A stretch of DNA of 22,827 nt, from positions 1 to 22,827 of IMG/VR virus record IMGVR_UViG_3300032331_000981. One strand, 5' to 3'. Under the pieces are notes generated by a model. It was not told the origin of the DNA, searched no databases, and saw nothing but the letters and a program-made list of their open reading frames with translations. Origin of the DNA: a virus. The position numbers were made by a program, and so were the translations under genes. This document shows positions 7,914-22,331 of the stretch, one piece after another (positions within the stretch are counted from its first letter, which is position 1; each line of letters begins with the position of its first letter).

Positions 7914-8084
7914 TCATTCTGCATCCTCTTCCTCCTCTTCGTCAGCCAGCATATCAAAGGCCAGGCGCTGCTTTACCAGCTCCAGGGCACCAAGAACCTC
8001 GATGGCGGTAACATCTTCAAGGCTGTCAACCAGATTATCGAGAGCGGTCAGGAAGTCTTCCATGGGTTTGGATGTAGACGGCAT
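7914..8084 (-). CDS. Small acidic protein between TerL and portal (56 aa)
   Basis: A 56-aa frame whose ATG overlaps the TerL stop as TGATG. Sequence MPSTSKPMEDFLTALDNLVD is followed by a helix (VLGALELVKQRLAFDMLADE) and a tail of acidic residues (EEEEEDAE). It fills the whole gap between TerL and portal, leaving 30 nt before the portal ATG. I do not recognise a family. The helix plus acidic tail could be a portal or terminase partner. The tight overlap, helical pattern and lack of a competing frame support it as a real gene. Confidence 0.65.
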   Translation of the reverse strand: MPSTSKPMEDFLTALDNLVDSLEDVTAIEVLGALELVKQRLAFDMLADEEEEEDAE

Positions 8085-9433
8085 CAGTATACCCTAACGC
8101 CAGTGCCCCGTCCAGCCCCAGCGTGCAATGGGTTAAACTCACGCCATACGAGGTAGCCGATGGCATCATTCATGTGGTCATAACCGCCATCCTTATCGGG
8201 TTCGCCTTTTTCGCTGTAGCTTTGAAGCTCCAGGCATTCGATTAATTTACGGCAACTGTGGTCAATGTGCAGGCGGATCTCACCTTTGCCATTTTCCATT
8301 AATGCTTGCATTGCTGCCACGCGATCACGCACGGGCGGGTTAGCGCGTGGTGATTGGTTTGACATGCCGTAGGATTCAAGGATTGCAATATCCGTCTGGC
8401 TTGCATTGGTACTACGATTACCGCCACTTGCGTCTGGGTAGACGTAAAGGCGATGATCTGGGTAGCGTGCTTTGATCGTTTGAGCTAAGGCATCAGTATC
8501 ATGCGCACCGCTGATCTCATCAAATACATATAATGTCTTGCCATTGCGGTATGCGATCACGGCAGACATATTGCCCACGTTAAAGTCAACACCAATACGC
8601 AGCGGTTCACGATATGATGGCGCCTCGATTGCGGTTACATGCTTTGCGCGATCAAAGCGGTCATAGACCTGGCCTGTGGTGAGATTGACAAATTCACCAT
8701 CAAGATAGGCTTTAAGTAGTTGCGGGTCATAGTTTGCTTCAAGGCGTTCGATGAAGTCTGCCGGCAGGTATGGATTATCTTGCGTACGCATCCTGATAAG
8801 CCGCCGATCATTGCGGCCTTTGCCATCTTCACTGGCAAATGTTTGCCACATCCACCTAAAGCCCTCTGGTGTTGATGCAGCAGCAAATTGGCGTATGTTA
8901 CCGGCACGTAAACGACCAAGGATCTTTGGAAATGCTTTGTTCGCTATTGCAGGTGCTACGGTATCGATTTCATCGGCCAAAATCCACGCAGCATTGATAC
9001 CGATAATGCGCTGCCAATTCTCAAAGCTGCGGCATAGGATCTTAGTATCACCGCCAGGCAGATGCAGCATGTATTCAGGTAATGGTGATGCTCGAAACGT
9101 ATATGGTATGTCATACGCTTCTAGGAAGTCGTCAAAGTCGCTTTGCCAAATATCACGAATCAATGGGCCTGTAGGCTCCATTACGACGCCAATAAACCCC
9201 TGATTAGCAATAGCAAGATGGACGGCTTTAGCGCATAAGGCGCGTGTTTTACCTGCGCCATAACCAGCACTAACGCCAAGTATGCTTGATGTTTGGTCAT
9301 CAACGAAAGCAAGCTGGCCAGGATGCAAATCCTCGCGGATACGTGCCAACAGGCTACTTACGTCGATGCTTTCATCACTGTAGCCAAACTGCTGTAATAC
9401 ATTGCCTGCCCTTGCAGTAGCAAGAATACTCAC
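8084..9433 (-). CDS. terL: Terminase large subunit (ATPase-nuclease)
   Basis: About 449 aa. Numbered from the GTG start: Walker A SAGYGAGKT at 55-63, Walker B AAWILADEID at 148-157, motif III ASTPEGF at 186-192, and the RNase H-like nuclease beginning with RIGVDFNVGN (279-288, catalytic Asp). The late HMNDAIGYLVW holds the last acidic residue. It packages DNA into the head by ATP hydrolysis and cuts the concatemer. I chose GTG at 9433 because it overlaps the TerS stop as GTGA, the habit of this operon; a TTG two codons upstream is less likely. It overlaps the next small gene as TGATG. Length is normal. Confidence 0.93.
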   Translation of the reverse strand: MSILATARAGNVLQQFGYSDESIDVSSLLARIREDLHPGQLAFVDDQTSSILGVSAGYGAGKTRALCAKAVHLAIANQGFIGVVMEPTGPLIRDIWQSDFDDFLEAYDIPYTFRASPLPEYMLHLPGGDTKILCRSFENWQRIIGINAAWILADEIDTVAPAIANKAFPKILGRLRAGNIRQFAAASTPEGFRWMWQTFASEDGKGRNDRRLIRMRTQDNPYLPADFIERLEANYDPQLLKAYLDGEFVNLTTGQVYDRFDRAKHVTAIEAPSYREPLRIGVDFNVGNMSAVIAYRNGKTLYVFDEISGAHDTDALAQTIKARYPDHRLYVYPDASGGNRSTNASQTDIAILESYGMSNQSPRANPPVRDRVAAMQALMENGKGEIRLHIDHSCRKLIECLELQSYSEKGEPDKDGGYDHMNDAIGYLVWREFNPLHAGAGRGTGVRVY

Positions 9434-9753
9434 GAACAAATCTGCGCTAGCTTTGCAGCAGTATTGATCGCGCCTAAGGCAATGTGCAACTGACCAGCAG
9501 CTCTAGCTTCTTGCTGTAGCGTTGCACATTGACTAAGTAAATCAGCCACCATTTGTGGACGTTCTAAGTCCCAATCTGCTTTGAGCATTTCACGCGCAAC
9601 AACTAAGTATTGATCGCAACTACGCGCACTAACCCCCCAGTGTTCCGAAGCATATTGAATGCAGTCTGATCTACGGCCACCATTAGCGATGATCCGCGCA
9701 AGCTGATTTGCGCGTTCAATCGTTTCCTGTTTGGTGCCTCGGGGTGCTGCCAT
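9430..9753 (-). CDS. terS: Terminase small subunit-like protein
   Basis: A 107-aa helical protein directly before TerL with overlapping stop/start. Residues 1-60 look like a helix-turn-helix DNA-binding unit (RANQLARIIANGGRRSDCIQ, then WGVSARSCDQYLVVARE), followed by a longer helical segment for ring assembly. Small terminase subunits recognise the packaging site on the genome and regulate TerL. Sequence alone is weak for family assignment; position and HTH pattern make the call. The ATG comes only about 15 nt after the U-run of the terminator hairpin, so its transcript must come from read-through or a promoter inside the terminator or the cyAbrB gene. Confidence 0.78.
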   Translation of the reverse strand: MAAPRGTKQETIERANQLARIIANGGRRSDCIQYASEHWGVSARSCDQYLVVAREMLKADWDLERPQMVADLLSQCATLQQEARAAGQLHIALGAINTAAKLAQICS

Positions 9754-9767
9754 AAATAGATGCTAGC

Positions 9768-9793
9768 AAAAGCCCCCAGCCGAAGCTAGGGGC
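9768..9793 (-). terminator. Rho-independent terminator (UUCG tetraloop) between cyAbrB and terS
   Basis: On the minus strand a 9-bp stem (9785-9793 with 9772-9780, one U-G wobble, mostly G-C) closes a UUCG tetraloop and is followed by UUUU (9771-9768). On the plus strand one pair becomes a mismatch and no T-run follows, so it acts leftward. It would end the transcript from primase through clamp and cyAbrB before the virion genes. Confidence 0.8.
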
Positions 9794-9801
9794 CGATGGT
9801 A

Positions 9802-10158
9802 TCAGAGTTTACTGATTGCCACGATGCCTTCCTCGACATCGACTTCAACGGCGAACTTATCGCCAGGCGCAAGGCCAAGTTGACTGGTGTAACCACCGGA
9901 CAGGATGGCATTACCGTTTTTCTGGATGGTGCCTTCGTAGGAAAGGGCACGGCCAGATTTCGGTGCTTTGACGACTTTAAGGCCATAGGCCTCAAGAAGG
10001 TTGGAGCGCAGTGCGGCGATTTTGGGTTTACCTTCTGCGGTGACGTACCCAGTGGCTGTCGCCAGTTCGGGTTCAGATATTTCGCCAAGGATTTTGACTT
10101 GTGCGAGCAGTTCGGAGCCTGTGAGTGCCATGTATGTGGTTGTGACCGTTGGAATCAT
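9802..10158 (-). CDS. Phage-encoded cyAbrB-like transcription regulator
   Basis: A 118-aa protein matching the cyanobacterial AbrB family (PF14250 type). The N-terminal part has LTGSELLAQVK (12-22) and ELATATGYV (31-39), like the host 'LTGKELL.KVKEL...' and '..CGY'. The C-terminal part has ALSYEGTIQKNGNAILSGGY (71-90) and LGLAPGDKFAVEV (94-106), like 'SY...VQ.NGNLLIG.AYT...GLKPGDEFEI'. Host cyAbrB proteins bind DNA and regulate carbon, nitrogen and stress genes. The ATG at 10158 overlaps the clamp stop (ATGA). ATG at 10131, just before LTG, is the alternative. It is the last gene before the terminator. Effects on phage or host promoters are inference. Confidence 0.85.
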   Translation of the reverse strand: MIPTVTTTYMALTGSELLAQVKILGEISEPELATATGYVTAEGKPKIAALRSNLLEAYGLKVVKAPKSGRALSYEGTIQKNGNAILSGGYTSQLGLAPGDKFAVEVDVEEGIVAISKL

Positions 10159-11216
10159 ACACGAACCTGCACGGGCATGACAAGGTAAAGCTGACCGTCA
10201 ATACCTACTGGCGACATGATGACAGGTGTGGTTGACGTGTTGGCTTGCATTTGAACTTTGGCACCATGTAAGTGTTTGAGACCATCGACTAGGTAACGGA
10301 CATTGAAGGCGGCATCAGGAAATGAACCGGAACAGGTAAGTTTTTCAGCGCCGCTGCTGGCTTCGGAATCTGCGACGATCGATAGGGTTTTGTTTTTGAC
10401 GGAAAGCCTTACCACATCGGAGTTGATGATGGCAATACGCTCTAGGGCTGCGATTAGGGCGATGCGATCAGCGGTGATGGTGTGCTTGAAGGTGTCAGGC
10501 ACCAGCTTTGATACGGCTGGATAGGCGCCTGCGAGGGTGCGTGAGGTAATGGTGACGCCATCGGCAATGATGATCGCTTGGCTGTTGGATGCAGCAAGCG
10601 TGACCGTAGGAGCATCGAGACGCTGGATAGCGGAGATGCTACGTGTCGGCAGGATGATGTCGATGGCACCATCGGCTGGCTGCGTGCGGGTGACCATGCG
10701 ATGACCATCGGTTGCCTCGATGCGCATGGTGCCGGCTTCTATGGCGACGTGCAGGCCGCAGATGACGCCTTTGGACTCATCGGTGGCAGCAGCAGCCAAA
10801 GCGCTACGCATGGGGTCCACAAGGGCCACGGAGACAGCTCCAGCGGTATCGACGACCGGAAGGGCGGGGAAGTCGTCTGCATCGTGTCCAGCGAGCTGAT
10901 AGGAGCCTGTAGCGCTCGACAATCTGACGGCAGTGCCATCAGCGGTCAGGAGCAAGGCAGCATCGTTGTCTAGGCGTCCGACGATCTCTGATAGGACGCG
11001 GTATGGGACGGCGATGGATCCTGCGGTTTCAACTGAAGCGAGGATCGTGGTTGAGATGCCGAGTTCAAGGTCGAAGGCTGAAACGCGCAGGTGGCCATCG
11101 GCCATGGCATCGATCAGGACATTGGAGAGGATTGGATGGGTCTTGCCGTTGGAGACAGCGCGACCGACGACCTTAAGCGCGTGGTTGAGGTCGGACTGAG
11201 CGGTGATGAATTTCAT
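10155..11216 (-). CDS. dnaN: DNA polymerase III beta subunit (sliding clamp)
   Basis: A 353-aa full-length clamp homologue. The start MKFITAQSDLNHALKVVGRA, then HPILSNVLIDA, FDLELGIST, and DDFPALP (115-121) mark domain 1. DESKGVICGLHVAIE and ATDGHRMVTRT mark domain 2, and the typical end LYLVMPVQVRV closes domain 3. This matches bacterial DnaN end to end and resembles cyanobacterial versions most. DnaN dimers encircle DNA and tether polymerase III and repair enzymes. No phage polymerase is seen in the window, so it may recruit host polymerase or displace the host clamp. It overlaps both neighbours by 4 nt. Confidence 0.93.
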   Translation of the reverse strand: MKFITAQSDLNHALKVVGRAVSNGKTHPILSNVLIDAMADGHLRVSAFDLELGISTTILASVETAGSIAVPYRVLSEIVGRLDNDAALLLTADGTAVRLSSATGSYQLAGHDADDFPALPVVDTAGAVSVALVDPMRSALAAAATDESKGVICGLHVAIEAGTMRIEATDGHRMVTRTQPADGAIDIILPTRSISAIQRLDAPTVTLAASNSQAIIIADGVTITSRTLAGAYPAVSKLVPDTFKHTITADRIALIAALERIAIINSDVVRLSVKNKTLSIVADSEASSGAEKLTCSGSFPDAAFNVRYLVDGLKHLHGAKVQMQANTSTTPVIMSPVGIDGQLYLVMPVQVRV

Positions 11217-11422
11217 GATGCGGCTTCGGTTAGGGCGGTGATAATGGCGCTGTAATCGGCGTCGAAACTGGCGACCAGTTCGGCGGGGATGGGGATGCCT
11301 TCGTCTTGTGCGTTATCGCGGATTGCGTTAGCGGTTGCCAGCGCCAAGGTCATGGCATCATGAAGACGATTGATGACGGGCGACTGCTTGGCTGTGATGC
11401 GAATCAAGTCTGGTGATGACAT
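11213..11422 (-). CDS. Hypothetical small helical protein upstream of the clamp
   Basis: A 69-aa frame ending in the overlap TGA/ATG with the clamp gene. Sequence features are ITAKQSPVINRLHDAMTLAL and IPAELVASFDADYSAIITAL; it is predicted all-helical. No family is recognised. The start is uncertain. ATG at 11422 gives a 65-nt overlap with the RHH gene in another frame; ATG at 11353 leaves 4 nt between genes and a 46-aa product. It is co-transcribed with the clamp and could be a partner, but nothing in the sequence shows it. Confidence 0.55.
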   Translation of the reverse strand: MSSPDLIRITAKQSPVINRLHDAMTLALATANAIRDNAQDEGIPIPAELVASFDADYSAIITALTEAAS

Positions 11423-11702
11423 ACGCGGTTAATAACTCAACATACTGCCTCGGGATGACACCACCCATAAAGGCAGCGGCATCAGAGACCAACGCATGGT
11501 ATGCGGTTGGCGTCAACCCATAAAGCCCCTGTTCATAATCCGCAACAATTGCCCGCTGCCGGATCAATGCCGAGCGGTTGGTACCTGCCGCTGCCGCCTG
11601 CCGGTCGATCATGTCCAGATCCTGTCTCTCCAGTCTCACTTTGATCTCAATCAATTTGGATGCGTGCCAGTGATACCAGTGTATCTCATCGAGTCCCAAC
11701 AT
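11358..11702 (-). CDS. Ribbon-helix-helix protein (CopG/Arc type) with C-terminal helical domain
   Basis: From the ATG at 11702 the product is 114 aa. Residues 18-52 (LIEIKVRLERQDLDMIDRQA, then AGTNRSALIRQRAI) show a beta strand followed by two helices with the 'T.RSALIR' turn of RHH DNA-binding proteins. A helical C-terminal domain follows (LTPTAYHALVSDAAAFMGG and YVELLTAYVITRL). The open frame extends upstream to 11777, but that part contains two copies of the TTTGCCTTCG repeat and reads unlike a protein, so I prefer 11702. RHH proteins act as dimers on short repeated operators. The two repeats just upstream make it a candidate for an autoregulator or an iteron-binding replication factor. 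Confidence 0.65.
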   Translation of the reverse strand: MLGLDEIHWYHWHASKLIEIKVRLERQDLDMIDRQAAAAGTNRSALIRQRAIVADYEQGLYGLTPTAYHALVSDAAAFMGGVIPRQYVELLTAYVITRLDSHHSQAVARHQSSS

Positions 11703-11718
11703 GCAAATACATCTACCC

Positions 11719-11950
11719 CGAAGGCAAATTGCAGCCCAGATCCCTTGGTATGACTCAAACGAAGGCAAAACACCCAAATGCCCTACTCTTCCTTATATGC
11801 ATTATGTATCACCCTGTTACCGTTTCTCTTTTCTTACTTGACTTGACTTGAGAGAAAAAAGAAAAAATGAGTAATAGCAAGGGGTTTGGGATGTTTTTTG
11901 CCTTCGATTTGGCTGCATTTGCCTTCGATTTGCCTTCGATTTGCCTTCGG
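11719..11950. repeat. Cluster of six TTTGCCTTCG repeats in the longest non-coding stretch (possible origin or operator)
   Basis: The perfect 10-mer TTTGCCTTCG occurs on the plus strand at 11897, 11918, 11929 and 11940 (spacing 21, 11, 11). It occurs inverted at 11719-11728 and 11760-11769 (41 apart). The last plus copy ends one base before the primase stop. Spacing of 11 puts sites on one face of the helix. Between the two groups lies an A/T-rich stretch with a thrice-repeated cttga and a purine run (about 11828-11870). This lies between primase-helicase and RHH genes and resembles an iteron-type origin or a multi-site operator. Confidence 0.75.
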
Positions 11951-14314
11951 TCAGGCCATGGACAGCCCCGTGAGCCGCTTTACGCGCAGGATCGGGTCCA
12001 TCTGAACGGTGAGCTCAGGCCATAGGGATTGGAGCCTGCCGACCAGCAACCGAGCCGCCTTGACCGGTGGATCATTGACTGGCGACAGCACCCAACGACC
12101 ATCCACTAGATAGCCTTCGGCCTCGTACCAGCCCTGGAGTCGCTCCCATACGGCCTTGAGCGGCACGCTGTGACCATCACCAGCCCATTGCAGCTCAGCG
12201 GCATCGCAGAACTCCCATAAGTGGCAACTGGAGCGGCGTACGGCATCCATGGCGGCATGGCCAGTGCTGTAGTCGATGCCGTAACCAACAGCAAGCTGCA
12301 TACCCTCAAGGAGCCAATTCAAAAAGGCAGGGCATATGTAACGACGGATGAAATCAGGGTCATCTTTTAAGCGTGGGTCAGCTTGGAGATGGGTTGGTTT
12401 TGTAGGTTTTGGCAGGAAAGTTTTACGGAACTTAAATACATGAAAACGGGTCTCGATTGCTACCTGTTCGCCCGACAGCGAAGGGTCTTTGTTGAGGTTA
12501 AAAACAAACAATGAAGACGGGATAAATTGCGACTCCTGCACACCTTTAAGTTCGTAAGATAACTCTTCTCCTGATATAGCGGCCTTCAGTGATTGCAAGT
12601 TGTCGATATGGACAAACTGTGAGTTTTCGCTTGACCAGTTAACAGATGCGCCGCGTAAAGGTGCAATGGGAAACTTACGACCTTGATCGTATTGGCGGAA
12701 GTCAGCAAGTGAACAGGACGTAAAATTACGGGCGCCAAGTGTATCGCGCAATGCAGTACGGATGGTGTCCTTACCGTTGCTGCCTTCACCGATCATCAGA
12801 ACGGCACGGGGTCTACCGCGTGTGGCGCGGTAATGTGCTAAGTCAAGGCCACTACCAAGGATGCGTTGGATCGTGTCTAGGTCGGTGCTGTCTACAGCCT
12901 CCAGCAGCCGCCACATATGCTCGGGATTTGCTTCAGGGTCATAGTCATACTCTGTGATATAGGTAAAAAACAGGTCGGGCGAGTGCGGCTCGAATCTGGT
13001 ATGGATGTCCCTACCGCTCCATACCCATGAGACGATGCCATTGCGGCAGTTGATGGCATTGCGAGGGTTGACGTCAACAGGCGATAGGTTGCGGCGTATC
13101 CAGGAGAGGGCTTCATCGACGTATCTAGGCCGGCGCCATGGATGGGAGCGGTTGCCGTGCTGGTCCTCAACGAATAGCTGCGACAGGAAGGCGGCCACCA
13201 ATGGCGCGAGTTCTTGGTCGGTACGTGCTTTGTAATGAGTGCCGCACCAATGATGGAGCACGCCTTCAACTTCAATCCAGCGATCGGCTGGGTAATTGAA
13301 CAGGTGCCGCAGGGTCAGATCCAACCATTCGGTATCGGTCTTGCTGACCAGCCGGCAGTTGAGGGCTTCCACCTCCACGGATCCAGCAGCAGAGGCAACG
13401 GCAGCAGGCCGCGGCGCTAATTGCGGTGGCCGCCAGCCGTGATGCTTCGCCCAGTACCAGAAAGTACCTTCGGTGATTTGGTCACCGCCTGAGCGTGCTA
13501 CCTGCGGCGCCTCGGCAAACAGCGGGCTATGCCGCTGCATCATTGCTACGGCCTGATCTGGGTCACCGACGACCTTGATTAGGCTCCACAGCAGATTGCG
13601 GTAAAACGGATACTGCTTTTGGTTTGGGATGGCGGCTGGTATGGCATCAAGCGCATCACGGATGTCGTCGATCGTGCGCGGCGCGTGTTCGGTGTGGCGT
13701 GCTGCCTGCTGCTGATGGTGGTAATGCTCTTCGTCAGGTAGGCAGGCTTCGAGGTCTGCCACTGAGTAGCGGATACCTGATGCGGTGACAACTGAGCACA
13801 AGGCGCCGAGCTCACCAGCGCCATTGGCGTGGTAGGTACCTGGCAGCCGCATGACGCGGGATGGATTCTTGATGGTGCGATCGGAATCGCAGAAATCAAT
13901 CAACCGCTGCTGGACGATCGCCCAATGGGATGGTGTGATCAGATCGGTCAGGAGCCAGTAGGTATGTATCGACTTGCCGCCGGTATCAACTTGGATCGAA
14001 GGCTCGGGCAACCCGAGATCCCGCCATGCGGTTAGCTGCCATTCACGCGGGCGATCATCCCATTCGACGAAGAAGGCACGGCAGGCGATGATGGTGGCAT
14101 CAGTGTCGCCGCCGTCATTGATGACGACATAAACGCCGCGGCCATCAGCCTGCCATTGCTCGATCGCTGACCGTGACGGGCCACCCTTACGGCCTGCATC
14201 ACCTGCTTTCTTGGGGTTTTTAGCGTGATAGAAGGCGCGTAGCCTGATGGTGCCGGGGGGTTTGCCTAGTAGGGACAGGAACCGCTGCGCCTCTGTGAAG
14301 TCAACGCTTTGCAT
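11951..14314 (-). CDS. RepB/D5-type primase-helicase
   Basis: A 787-aa protein if read from ATG at 14314; an in-frame GTG at 14344 would add 10 residues. The N-terminal primase part has FFVEWDD (81-87, acidic metal site), SIHTYW (115-120) and SRVMRLPGT (152-160), typical of the RepB-like/archaeo-eukaryotic primase group. The C-terminal SF3/D5 helicase has Walker A GEGSNGKDT (509-517), an acidic second motif ASVNWSSE (556-563), SSLFVFNLN (600-608) and an arginine region ETRFHVFKF (621-629). It would make primers and unwind phage DNA. Its 5' end overlaps a small RHH gene; the repeat cluster begins at its stop codon. Confidence 0.88.
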   Translation of the reverse strand: MQSVDFTEAQRFLSLLGKPPGTIRLRAFYHAKNPKKAGDAGRKGGPSRSAIEQWQADGRGVYVVINDGGDTDATIIACRAFFVEWDDRPREWQLTAWRDLGLPEPSIQVDTGGKSIHTYWLLTDLITPSHWAIVQQRLIDFCDSDRTIKNPSRVMRLPGTYHANGAGELGALCSVVTASGIRYSVADLEACLPDEEHYHHQQQAARHTEHAPRTIDDIRDALDAIPAAIPNQKQYPFYRNLLWSLIKVVGDPDQAVAMMQRHSPLFAEAPQVARSGGDQITEGTFWYWAKHHGWRPPQLAPRPAAVASAAGSVEVEALNCRLVSKTDTEWLDLTLRHLFNYPADRWIEVEGVLHHWCGTHYKARTDQELAPLVAAFLSQLFVEDQHGNRSHPWRRPRYVDEALSWIRRNLSPVDVNPRNAINCRNGIVSWVWSGRDIHTRFEPHSPDLFFTYITEYDYDPEANPEHMWRLLEAVDSTDLDTIQRILGSGLDLAHYRATRGRPRAVLMIGEGSNGKDTIRTALRDTLGARNFTSCSLADFRQYDQGRKFPIAPLRGASVNWSSENSQFVHIDNLQSLKAAISGEELSYELKGVQESQFIPSSLFVFNLNKDPSLSGEQVAIETRFHVFKFRKTFLPKPTKPTHLQADPRLKDDPDFIRRYICPAFLNWLLEGMQLAVGYGIDYSTGHAAMDAVRRSSCHLWEFCDAAELQWAGDGHSVPLKAVWERLQGWYEAEGYLVDGRWVLSPVNDPPVKAARLLVGRLQSLWPELTVQMDPILRVKRLTGLSMA

Positions 14315-14444
14315 CAGATTCCATGGCACGCAGTAAATGGTCACGGATTACGGCACCAATGCCGTAGCCGTATCTCACCTGAGACTCAAGCCAACGCCTG
14401 AGGTCTGGCGGGATGGTGATACTGGTCGATCGCGTCTTGGCCAT
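14301..14444 (-). CDS. Tiny ribbon-helix-helix regulator
   Basis: A 47-aa frame starting MAKTRSTSITIPPDLRRWLE and continuing with VRYGYGIGAVIRDHLLRAM. The strand STSITIP, helix A from PDLRRWLESQ and helix B from GAVIRDHLLR reproduce the complete RHH fold, about 45 residues, with no extra domain. It is the first gene of the leftward set and overlaps the primase start. The perfect palindrome at 14472-14486 lies 28 nt upstream of its ATG. The likely role is autorepression plus control of the divergent rightward genes. It was found by direct translation, being short. Family assignment is by pattern, not by search. Confidence 0.7.
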   Translation of the reverse strand: MAKTRSTSITIPPDLRRWLESQVRYGYGIGAVIRDHLLRAMESDAKR

Positions 14445-21826: not shown

Positions 21827-22017
21827 CCATGCACGAAACCAACCTGGCACTGCTGGAGTTTCTTGGTATTGACCCGGAATCGATGGTCACCCGAATTGAT
21901 CTGGTTGCCACTCCAGACGACTGCCCCAAGGTGACCGTCACCCGCCTGCTGCTGGATCTGCCTGGCGTCACAGAAACCCGCATGTTCAAACTTGTCCCTT
22001 ACTCAACTCCCGAATGA
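21823..22017 (+). CDS. Hypothetical 64-aa protein
   Basis: Starts MTMHETNLALLEFLGIDPES, followed by a strand-rich part (TRIDLVATPDDCPKVTVTRL, ETRMFKLVPY). ATG at 21823 overlaps the previous stop (ATGA) and is preferred to an in-frame ATG 30 nt upstream. The layout of a short helix then 'vt.i.l.a..dd.p.vtv.r' strands recalls small phage proteins that may resemble parts of tail or Ea-type proteins, but I cannot name it. Its stop overlaps the secreted RlpA-like gene. Confidence 0.6.
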   Translation: MTMHETNLALLEFLGIDPESMVTRIDLVATPDDCPKVTVTRLLLDLPGVTETRMFKLVPYSTPE

Positions 22018-22331
22018 AGCGACTTCTATTACTGCTGGCTTTGCTCGCGGCACCAGTCCAAGCCAGGACCGTCACGGCCACGGTGTACGACCCCTGGTAT
22101 TCAGGCCGCCCCGACTACTGTACGGGTCGCGCCTACCAGCATTGGGGCATCAGTGCAGCGCATCCGTGGCTGCCATGCGGCACCCGCGTCACCGTCACCC
22201 ATCGCGGTCGGTCGCTGGTGGTGCCGATCCGGGACCGCTGCGACTGCAACAGCATCGACCTATCAGCAGGTGCTGCCTATCGGCTTGGCGTGCCGCTTGA
22301 TGGTATTGCTCGAGTGGGGATTGAATACTGA
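22014..22331 (+). CDS. Secreted RlpA-like double-psi beta-barrel protein
   Basis: A 105-aa protein with a clear Sec signal peptide (MKRLLLLLALLAAPVQA, cleavage after Ala17). The remainder has TATVYDPWYSGR, LPCGTRVTVTHRGRSLVVPI (53-72), then RDRCDC...SIDLSAGAAYRLGV (73-93), which matches the RlpA/DPBB pattern 'G..V.V.....v.v.i.DR....IDLS..aA..LG'. RlpA proteins are septal lytic transglycosylases acting on bare glycan. Four Cys (36, 55, 76, 78) suggest disulfides. The domain is near minimal size and lacks the SPOR domain. A role in lysis or cell-wall change during infection is inferred; the location among early genes, not lysis genes, is odd. Confidence 0.8.
   Translation: MKRLLLLLALLAAPVQARTVTATVYDPWYSGRPDYCTGRAYQHWGISAAHPWLPCGTRVTVTHRGRSLVVPIRDRCDCNSIDLSAGAAYRLGVPLDGIARVGIEY

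Follow-up and report, generated by a model that had tools for sequence, protein, structure and literature searches.

A charge-reversed viral paralogue of cyanobacterial cyAbrB at the end of a cyanosiphovirus dnaN operon

A cyAbrB-family gene between dnaN and the terminase genes

We analyzed a 22.8-kb virus record (22,827 nucleotides in full, hereafter 'the window') whose large terminase is 77% identical to that of Synechococcus phage S-H1, 76% to that of KBS-S-2A, and 68% to those of Prochlorococcus phages MED4-117 and MED4-184. The window virus is a real cyanosiphovirus and, because its terminase resembles those of these phages, its host is likely a picocyanobacterium. Genes on one strand encode, in order, a primase, a ribbon-helix-helix (RHH) protein, gp69, DnaN, and a cyAbrB-like protein, and are followed by a terminator, terS, terL, and the portal gene (Table 1). 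Elsewhere in the window, a gene at 22014-22331, which may serve in lysis, encodes a septal ring protein of RlpA type; its rlpA score of 37 bits falls short of the family cut-off.

Table 1. Features of the window, and cyAbrB N-domain genes of other cyanophages.
Feature	Position	Strand	Basis or remark
Primase/helicase, opening the same-strand run	11951..14344	-	PF08706, PF19263, phrog_864/36873
Iteron cluster, six exact TTTGCCTTCG copies (two -, four +) around an AT-rich core	11719..11949	.	
RHH (CopG-type) protein, start uncertain	11358..11777	-	PF01402, 22.1 bits
gp69, small protein between RHH and dnaN	11213..11422	-	ORF, conserved among relatives
dnaN, DNA polymerase III beta clamp, 353 aa	10155..11216	-	PF00712/PF02767/PF02768
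Phage cyAbrB-like gene	9802..10158	-	118 aa; N-terminal domain ~10-60, AbrB-like core ~69-118
Rho-independent terminator hairpin after cyAbrB	9772..9793	-	9-bp stem, then TTTT (9768-9771)
Extended -10-like element TGCTAGCAT	9760..9768	-	6 nt before terS ATG
Small terminase (terS) candidate	9430..9753	-	phrog_34910 (unknown function), directly before terL
Large terminase (terL)	8084..9439	-	Pfam Terminase_6N/6C
P-TIM68 gp74 (T4-like cyanophage)	L192 3001-3159		N-domain-only protein
S-B28 gp49 (cyanopodovirus)	L194 2986-3546		N-domain + ArdA-like fusion
S-CBP1 gp5 (cyanopodovirus)	L195 1127-1693		N-domain + ArdA-like fusion
WH11-B (cyanopodovirus)	L196 1647-2207		N-domain + ArdA-like fusion

The first-pass annotation gave the coordinates and product of the cyAbrB-like gene correctly but omitted its minus strand. 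The dnaN stop codon overlaps the start codon of this gene (ATGA) in 19/19 relatives read, and an alternative start at M10 (MALTG) is likewise conserved. The gene is, as had been proposed, the last one before a terminator that precedes the virion genes. The hairpin has a fold z of -3.7 and, across 10 sequence variants, 97.8% of cells are paired, with two pairs changed on both sides; this retention of pairing through two-sided changes supports a real terminator separating the replication run from terS. The downstream TGCTAGCAT element is present in 18/18 relatives that reach its position (one changed base allowed). It may be a late promoter for terS, though it hints at this weakly because the window contains a single site and chance matches are expected at two mismatches. 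TTTTGCTAGCAT was rejected as a recurrent late promoter, as one site only was found within the window. In many relatives a ParB-methyltransferase-like gene (~400 aa, DDLKSDHKNARRRTDRS) fills the slot between dnaN and terS: it lies in the slot before terS in contigs L149, L158, L170, L172, and L175, and in L005 (1654-3567) it has been inserted downstream of the cyAbrB terminator, ahead of terS.

The predicted protein matches PF14250 (AbrB-like, cyAbrB superfamily) at 43.8 bits over residues 53-107 (Pfam, E 2.7e-11, gathering cut-off 25), bearing out its earlier assignment to the cyAbrB family. Its N-terminal part lies outside the PF14250 model yet can be aligned with 76 host cyAbrBs, and the protein retains the host-invariant residues L12, G14, L17, G37, Y38, L54, A57, and G59. 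An N-domain pattern L-x-G-x-x-L-x-x-x-VK ... GY is present in 8/8 sequences compared (L12, G14, L17, V21, K22, G37, Y38), as is, in the window protein, an AbrB-type core GR-S-Q-NG-Y-PGD-F (G69, R70, S73, Q79, N81, G82, Y90, P98, G99, D100, F102). The N-terminal signature read from the sequence earlier was thus right in its LTG..VK and GY parts but not in 'CGY', since the clade has a cysteine-free 'TGY'. We conclude that the window gene is a viral paralogue of the cyanobacterial cyAbrB family. No PHROGs or NCBIfam family model matched the protein, and none of 50,697 phage genomes contained a direct match to it.

A monomer model of the protein reached a moderate pLDDT of 73 (other models 48-60) and places strands and a helix where the AbrB swapped-hairpin fold expects them. 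Comparison of this model with PDB folds gave no significant match (Foldseek best E 0.39), a result that is uninformative because the fold requires a dimer. The sequence profile weakly touches the AbrB-like structure 2glw (E 0.005), and the best fold match in BFVD is an AbrB-family protein of phage MedDCM-OCT-S39-C11.

The region between the primase and RHH genes contains six TTTGCCTTCG copies, which is far above chance, and these copies are conserved inside the window clade. Positions 11719-11950 had been suggested as a cyAbrB target. However, clusters with multiple copies in both orientations and an AT-rich core occur in the homologous intergenic regions of L122, L124, L130, L149, L172, L178, L184, and S-H1, and L130, L149, L172, and S-H1 have their own cluster at the same place yet no cyAbrB. 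The repeats are therefore not specific to cyAbrB, and a role as cyAbrB operators is not supported; a replication origin or an array of RHH operators, switching in sequence between lineages, accounts for them better. The repeats that lineages carry at this intergenic place are unrelated in sequence (TTTGCCTTCG, TGTTACGCC, GCGGACGCAA, GGTAGGGCA, GTACCCCACCT, CCGTTCGGA) and have the look of rapidly changing iterons, whether of an origin or of an RHH operator.

Conservation, origin, and charge reversal of the window clade

Window-type cyAbrBs are encoded by 20 other IMG/VR contigs, all metagenomic, at 88-99% identity. Substitutions fall chiefly at third codon positions (dN/dS ~0.04-0.17), and the gene is under purifying selection. 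Among 19 sequences, invariant positions number 43/50 in the core, 42/51 in the N-domain, and 4/9 in the N-terminal extension.

A tree was built from eight window-type sequences together with cyAbrBs from hosts (76), plasmids (4), and other viruses (8). The window-type sequences form one clade with 100/100 support outside all sampled hosts, and the window protein does not group with host cyAbrB1 or cyAbrB2. The branch leading to the clade is so long (~6 changes per site) that a host source lineage is not assignable. The window-type trait appears once in the terminase tree.

These results bear on the possibility that the gene belongs to a host chromosome fragment or a mis-binned contig, or is decaying. 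In its favor, hosts have abundant cyAbrBs and host-like copies occur in nine other viral contigs, but phage genes lie on both flanks here, the clade and its very long branch stand outside the sampled hosts, the gene recurs in other contigs, and selection maintains it. We regard this explanation as extremely improbable; the tree and synteny rule out host contamination, and the gene's separate phage clade and phage neighbors uphold its earlier attribution to the phage. Two further sequences in our dataset, L046 and L092, are labelled Bifidobacterium breve and Chloroflexaceae but have typical cyanobacterial cyAbrBs and are probably mis-binned metagenome assemblies.

The window protein shares with host cyAbrB1/cyAbrB2 (Synechocystis Sll0359/Sll0822) the N-domain LTGxxLL..VK...GY and the C-terminal core GR-LSY-Q-NGN-Y-L-PGD-F, but at ~40% identity, with FTAFYEALLEAKG kept in part only. 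It differs further in its separate clade, core charge, and lack of cysteine, and in having D-x-EE for LGRK. Net charge of the 50-residue AbrB core is -2 in 8/8 window-type sequences tested, whereas the 76 hosts have a median of +4 (range +1 to +6); it is +3 in a second, terL-adjacent phage type and +4 in other viral copies. The G-x-K of the host LGRK motif is near-invariant (76/76 and 75/76), and in the window type it is replaced by D107-x-E109, followed by E110. As E105, D107, E109, and E110 are invariant in the 19 window-type sequences and the core is so constrained, this acidic wing is maintained rather than decaying.

No cysteine occurs in any of the 19 window-type sequences. Twelve of the 76 host cyAbrBs also lack CGY, so cysteine loss alone is unremarkable. 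In Synechocystis AbrB2 the conserved cysteine is glutathionylated, with altered oligomerization and promoter/DNA binding (PMC4264147).

cyAbrB proteins of other cyanophages

When contigs with related terminases were scanned with a profile, a second cyAbrB type emerged immediately after terL. Of 73 terminase rows whose flanks were long enough to judge, the window type was present in 15, the terL-adjacent type in 27, and neither in 31; a search dedicated to the terL-adjacent type recovered relatives from at least 152 contigs. Across the 80 of these contigs that were read, terL lies directly upstream in 74/74 cases and the portal gene directly downstream in 73/75 that extend far enough. S-H1, KBS-S-2A, MED4-117, and MED4-184 lack this type. 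The terL-adjacent cyAbrB resembles that of the window in phage group, protein family, and position beside the terminase, but sits between terL and portal, has a basic host-like core, and forms a separate clade. A single origin of the two types is compatible with the AU test (p 0.18).

Cyanophages of other families encode the N-domain separated from the AbrB core. P-TIM68 gp74 consists of the N-domain alone (52 aa; 66.6 bits, E 4e-16 for five million sequences), and one metagenomic relative of it (L203) shares 83% identity. B23 gp246 joins the N-domain to a basic segment (44.3 bits). An N-domain begins S-B28 gp49 and the WH11-B protein (37.5 bits) and S-CBP1 gp5 (27.1 bits); the best score among 60,000 shuffled decoys was 9.5. 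The remainder of these three proteins is strongly acidic (net charge -26 or -27, pI 4.05) and weakly resembles ArdA/anti-restriction families (Pfam E 0.03 for S-B28, PHROG E 8e-5 to 2e-3). A structure model of an S-B28 gp49 homologue was set aside at pLDDT 50. All three fusion genes precede an RNA polymerase gene, an early-gene site in T7-like phages, and judged from their sequences the fusions are candidate early inhibitors of cyAbrB.

Krakvirus MedDCM-OCT-S39-C11 encodes a protein (BAQ94494.1) that is similar to that of the window in length (118 aa), PF14250 match (28.9 bits), and slightly acidic core, and too diverged for placement in the cyAbrB tree. This phage is a T7-like podovirus, however, and its gene follows tail and internal virion genes. 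The first-pass annotation had noted no described phage cyAbrB function. The literature we searched, with many subscription journals outside its scope, contains no description of a phage cyAbrB, but BAQ94494.1, from an uncultured fosmid phage, is already annotated as AbrB family. The terL-adjacent type of uncultured cyanosiphoviruses, the charge-reversed window clade, and the N-domain-only and ArdA-like-fused proteins are newly described here.

Possible roles of the window protein

In the host, cyAbrB2 covers AT-rich DNA and IS elements and represses genes there, interacts with cyAbrB1, with which it also has sites in common, and behaves as a nucleoid-associated protein; it has been likened to H-NS and proposed as a defense against foreign DNA (PMC11368403). 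The proteins that counter H-NS are of three kinds – paralogues, truncated derivatives, and DNA mimics – and phages encode several of them (PMC6936261). Characterized antagonists of H-NS/MvaT (T7 gp5.5, Ocr, T4 Arn, LUZ24 Mip) and truncated H-NST share the logic of disarming a host silencing nucleoid protein (PMC6936261). Mobile elements achieve this through co-oligomerization or DNA mimicry, and we propose similar logic for the window protein – though the H-NS/MvaT antagonists have unrelated folds and are experimentally tested.

By this analogy, the window protein may engage the host cyAbrB system by co-oligomerizing with or displacing its members, in the manner of a counter-silencer; this is our tentative first choice among the readings considered. 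Encoded by the last gene of the dnaN operon and made alongside the phage's replication proteins, it would enter mixed oligomers with host cyAbrB, or compete for its partners, through the retained N-domain and core. With an acidic core and no cysteine to contribute, it might lower or alter the DNA binding of such oligomers, which would also be insensitive to redox state. The hold of host cyAbrB on phage and host DNA would thereby be relieved, the window protein acting as a phage counter-silencer of a nucleoid-associated protein. The combination of retained host-invariant structural residues, reversed core charge, absent cysteine, and purifying selection is in keeping with such a role. The first-pass annotation had raised the idea that a phage copy could compete with host cyAbrBs, and the charge reversal and the cyanophage comparison appear to favor it, as the cyanophage cyAbrB proteins fall into the same three types as the H-NS antagonists.

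Counter-silencers are usually early, and the dnaN-operon position suggests that the window protein does not have a purely early takeover role; judged from this position, the gene is probably expressed in the middle phase. The terL-adjacent relatives, which are the commoner type, keep a basic host-like core, as would fit autonomous DNA binding. It is accordingly plausible, if rather less probable, that the window protein is itself a DNA-binding regulator of altered specificity, acting on host metabolic genes or on phage promoters, for example to switch from replication to late expression at terS. Negative net charge is compatible with specific DNA binding, and this alternative carries weight mainly because the AbrB core is kept whole, as the most constrained part of the protein, and because the terL-adjacent cores are basic; related types also adjoin terL, and the terminator and -10-like element lie directly downstream, before terS. 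The acidic core and the change of the host GRK motif to D-x-E-E argue against it, as do the same gene order in L130 and S-H1, which have no cyAbrB, and the sole nearby repeat cluster, which shares its position with those of cyAbrB-less relatives. The 'late switch' proposed earlier is likewise borne out in position only, since sister lineage L130 still has dnaN directly before terS without a cyAbrB between them.

We consider it unlikely that the protein is architectural, coating or organizing phage DNA for replication or packaging. The phage cyAbrB always adjoins dnaN or a terminase, cyAbrB2 is nucleoid-associated-like (PMC11368403), and in the Acaryochloris plasmids pREC2 and pREC3 (L026, L027) cyAbrB adjoins an HU-family gene. 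But an acidic core is improbable in a bulk DNA-coating protein, and the flanks read at 31/73 related TerL loci contain no cyAbrB. Two other roles were rejected: an AbrB/MazE-type antitoxin, as the flanking genes are dnaN and terS with no toxin neighbor, and lysogeny control, as 15 related (possibly incomplete) contigs show no integrase above the cut-off. A single sub-threshold integrase match was seen in the L118 contig, which was included for its host-like cyAbrB and not for terminase kinship.

Returning to the counter-silencer reading, the occurrence of phage cyAbrB genes in several places points to a previously unstudied contest over a host regulator. A broader proposal, which we hold with somewhat more doubt than engagement of the host system by the window protein, is that cyanophages of several families are in an arms race against cyAbrB-based xenogeneic silencing and use three H-NS-type countermeasures. 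By analogy, the window clade, the terL-adjacent type, and the Krakvirus protein would be the paralogues, P-TIM68 the N-domain-only poison, and the acidic S-B28 and S-CBP1 fusions the DNA-mimic-like class, with the window protein a poison subunit of reversed charge and no redox response.

That cyAbrB2 acts as a nucleoid-associated protein is a recent finding, and its anti-foreign-DNA role is a suggestion. Widespread phage cyAbrB variants would be natural tools for testing cyAbrB as a cyanobacterial xenogeneic silencer, and the N-domain-only and fused variants would help show how the cyAbrB N-domain works. Picocyanobacteria are major primary producers; if true, the proposed contest would add a route of host takeover in these organisms.
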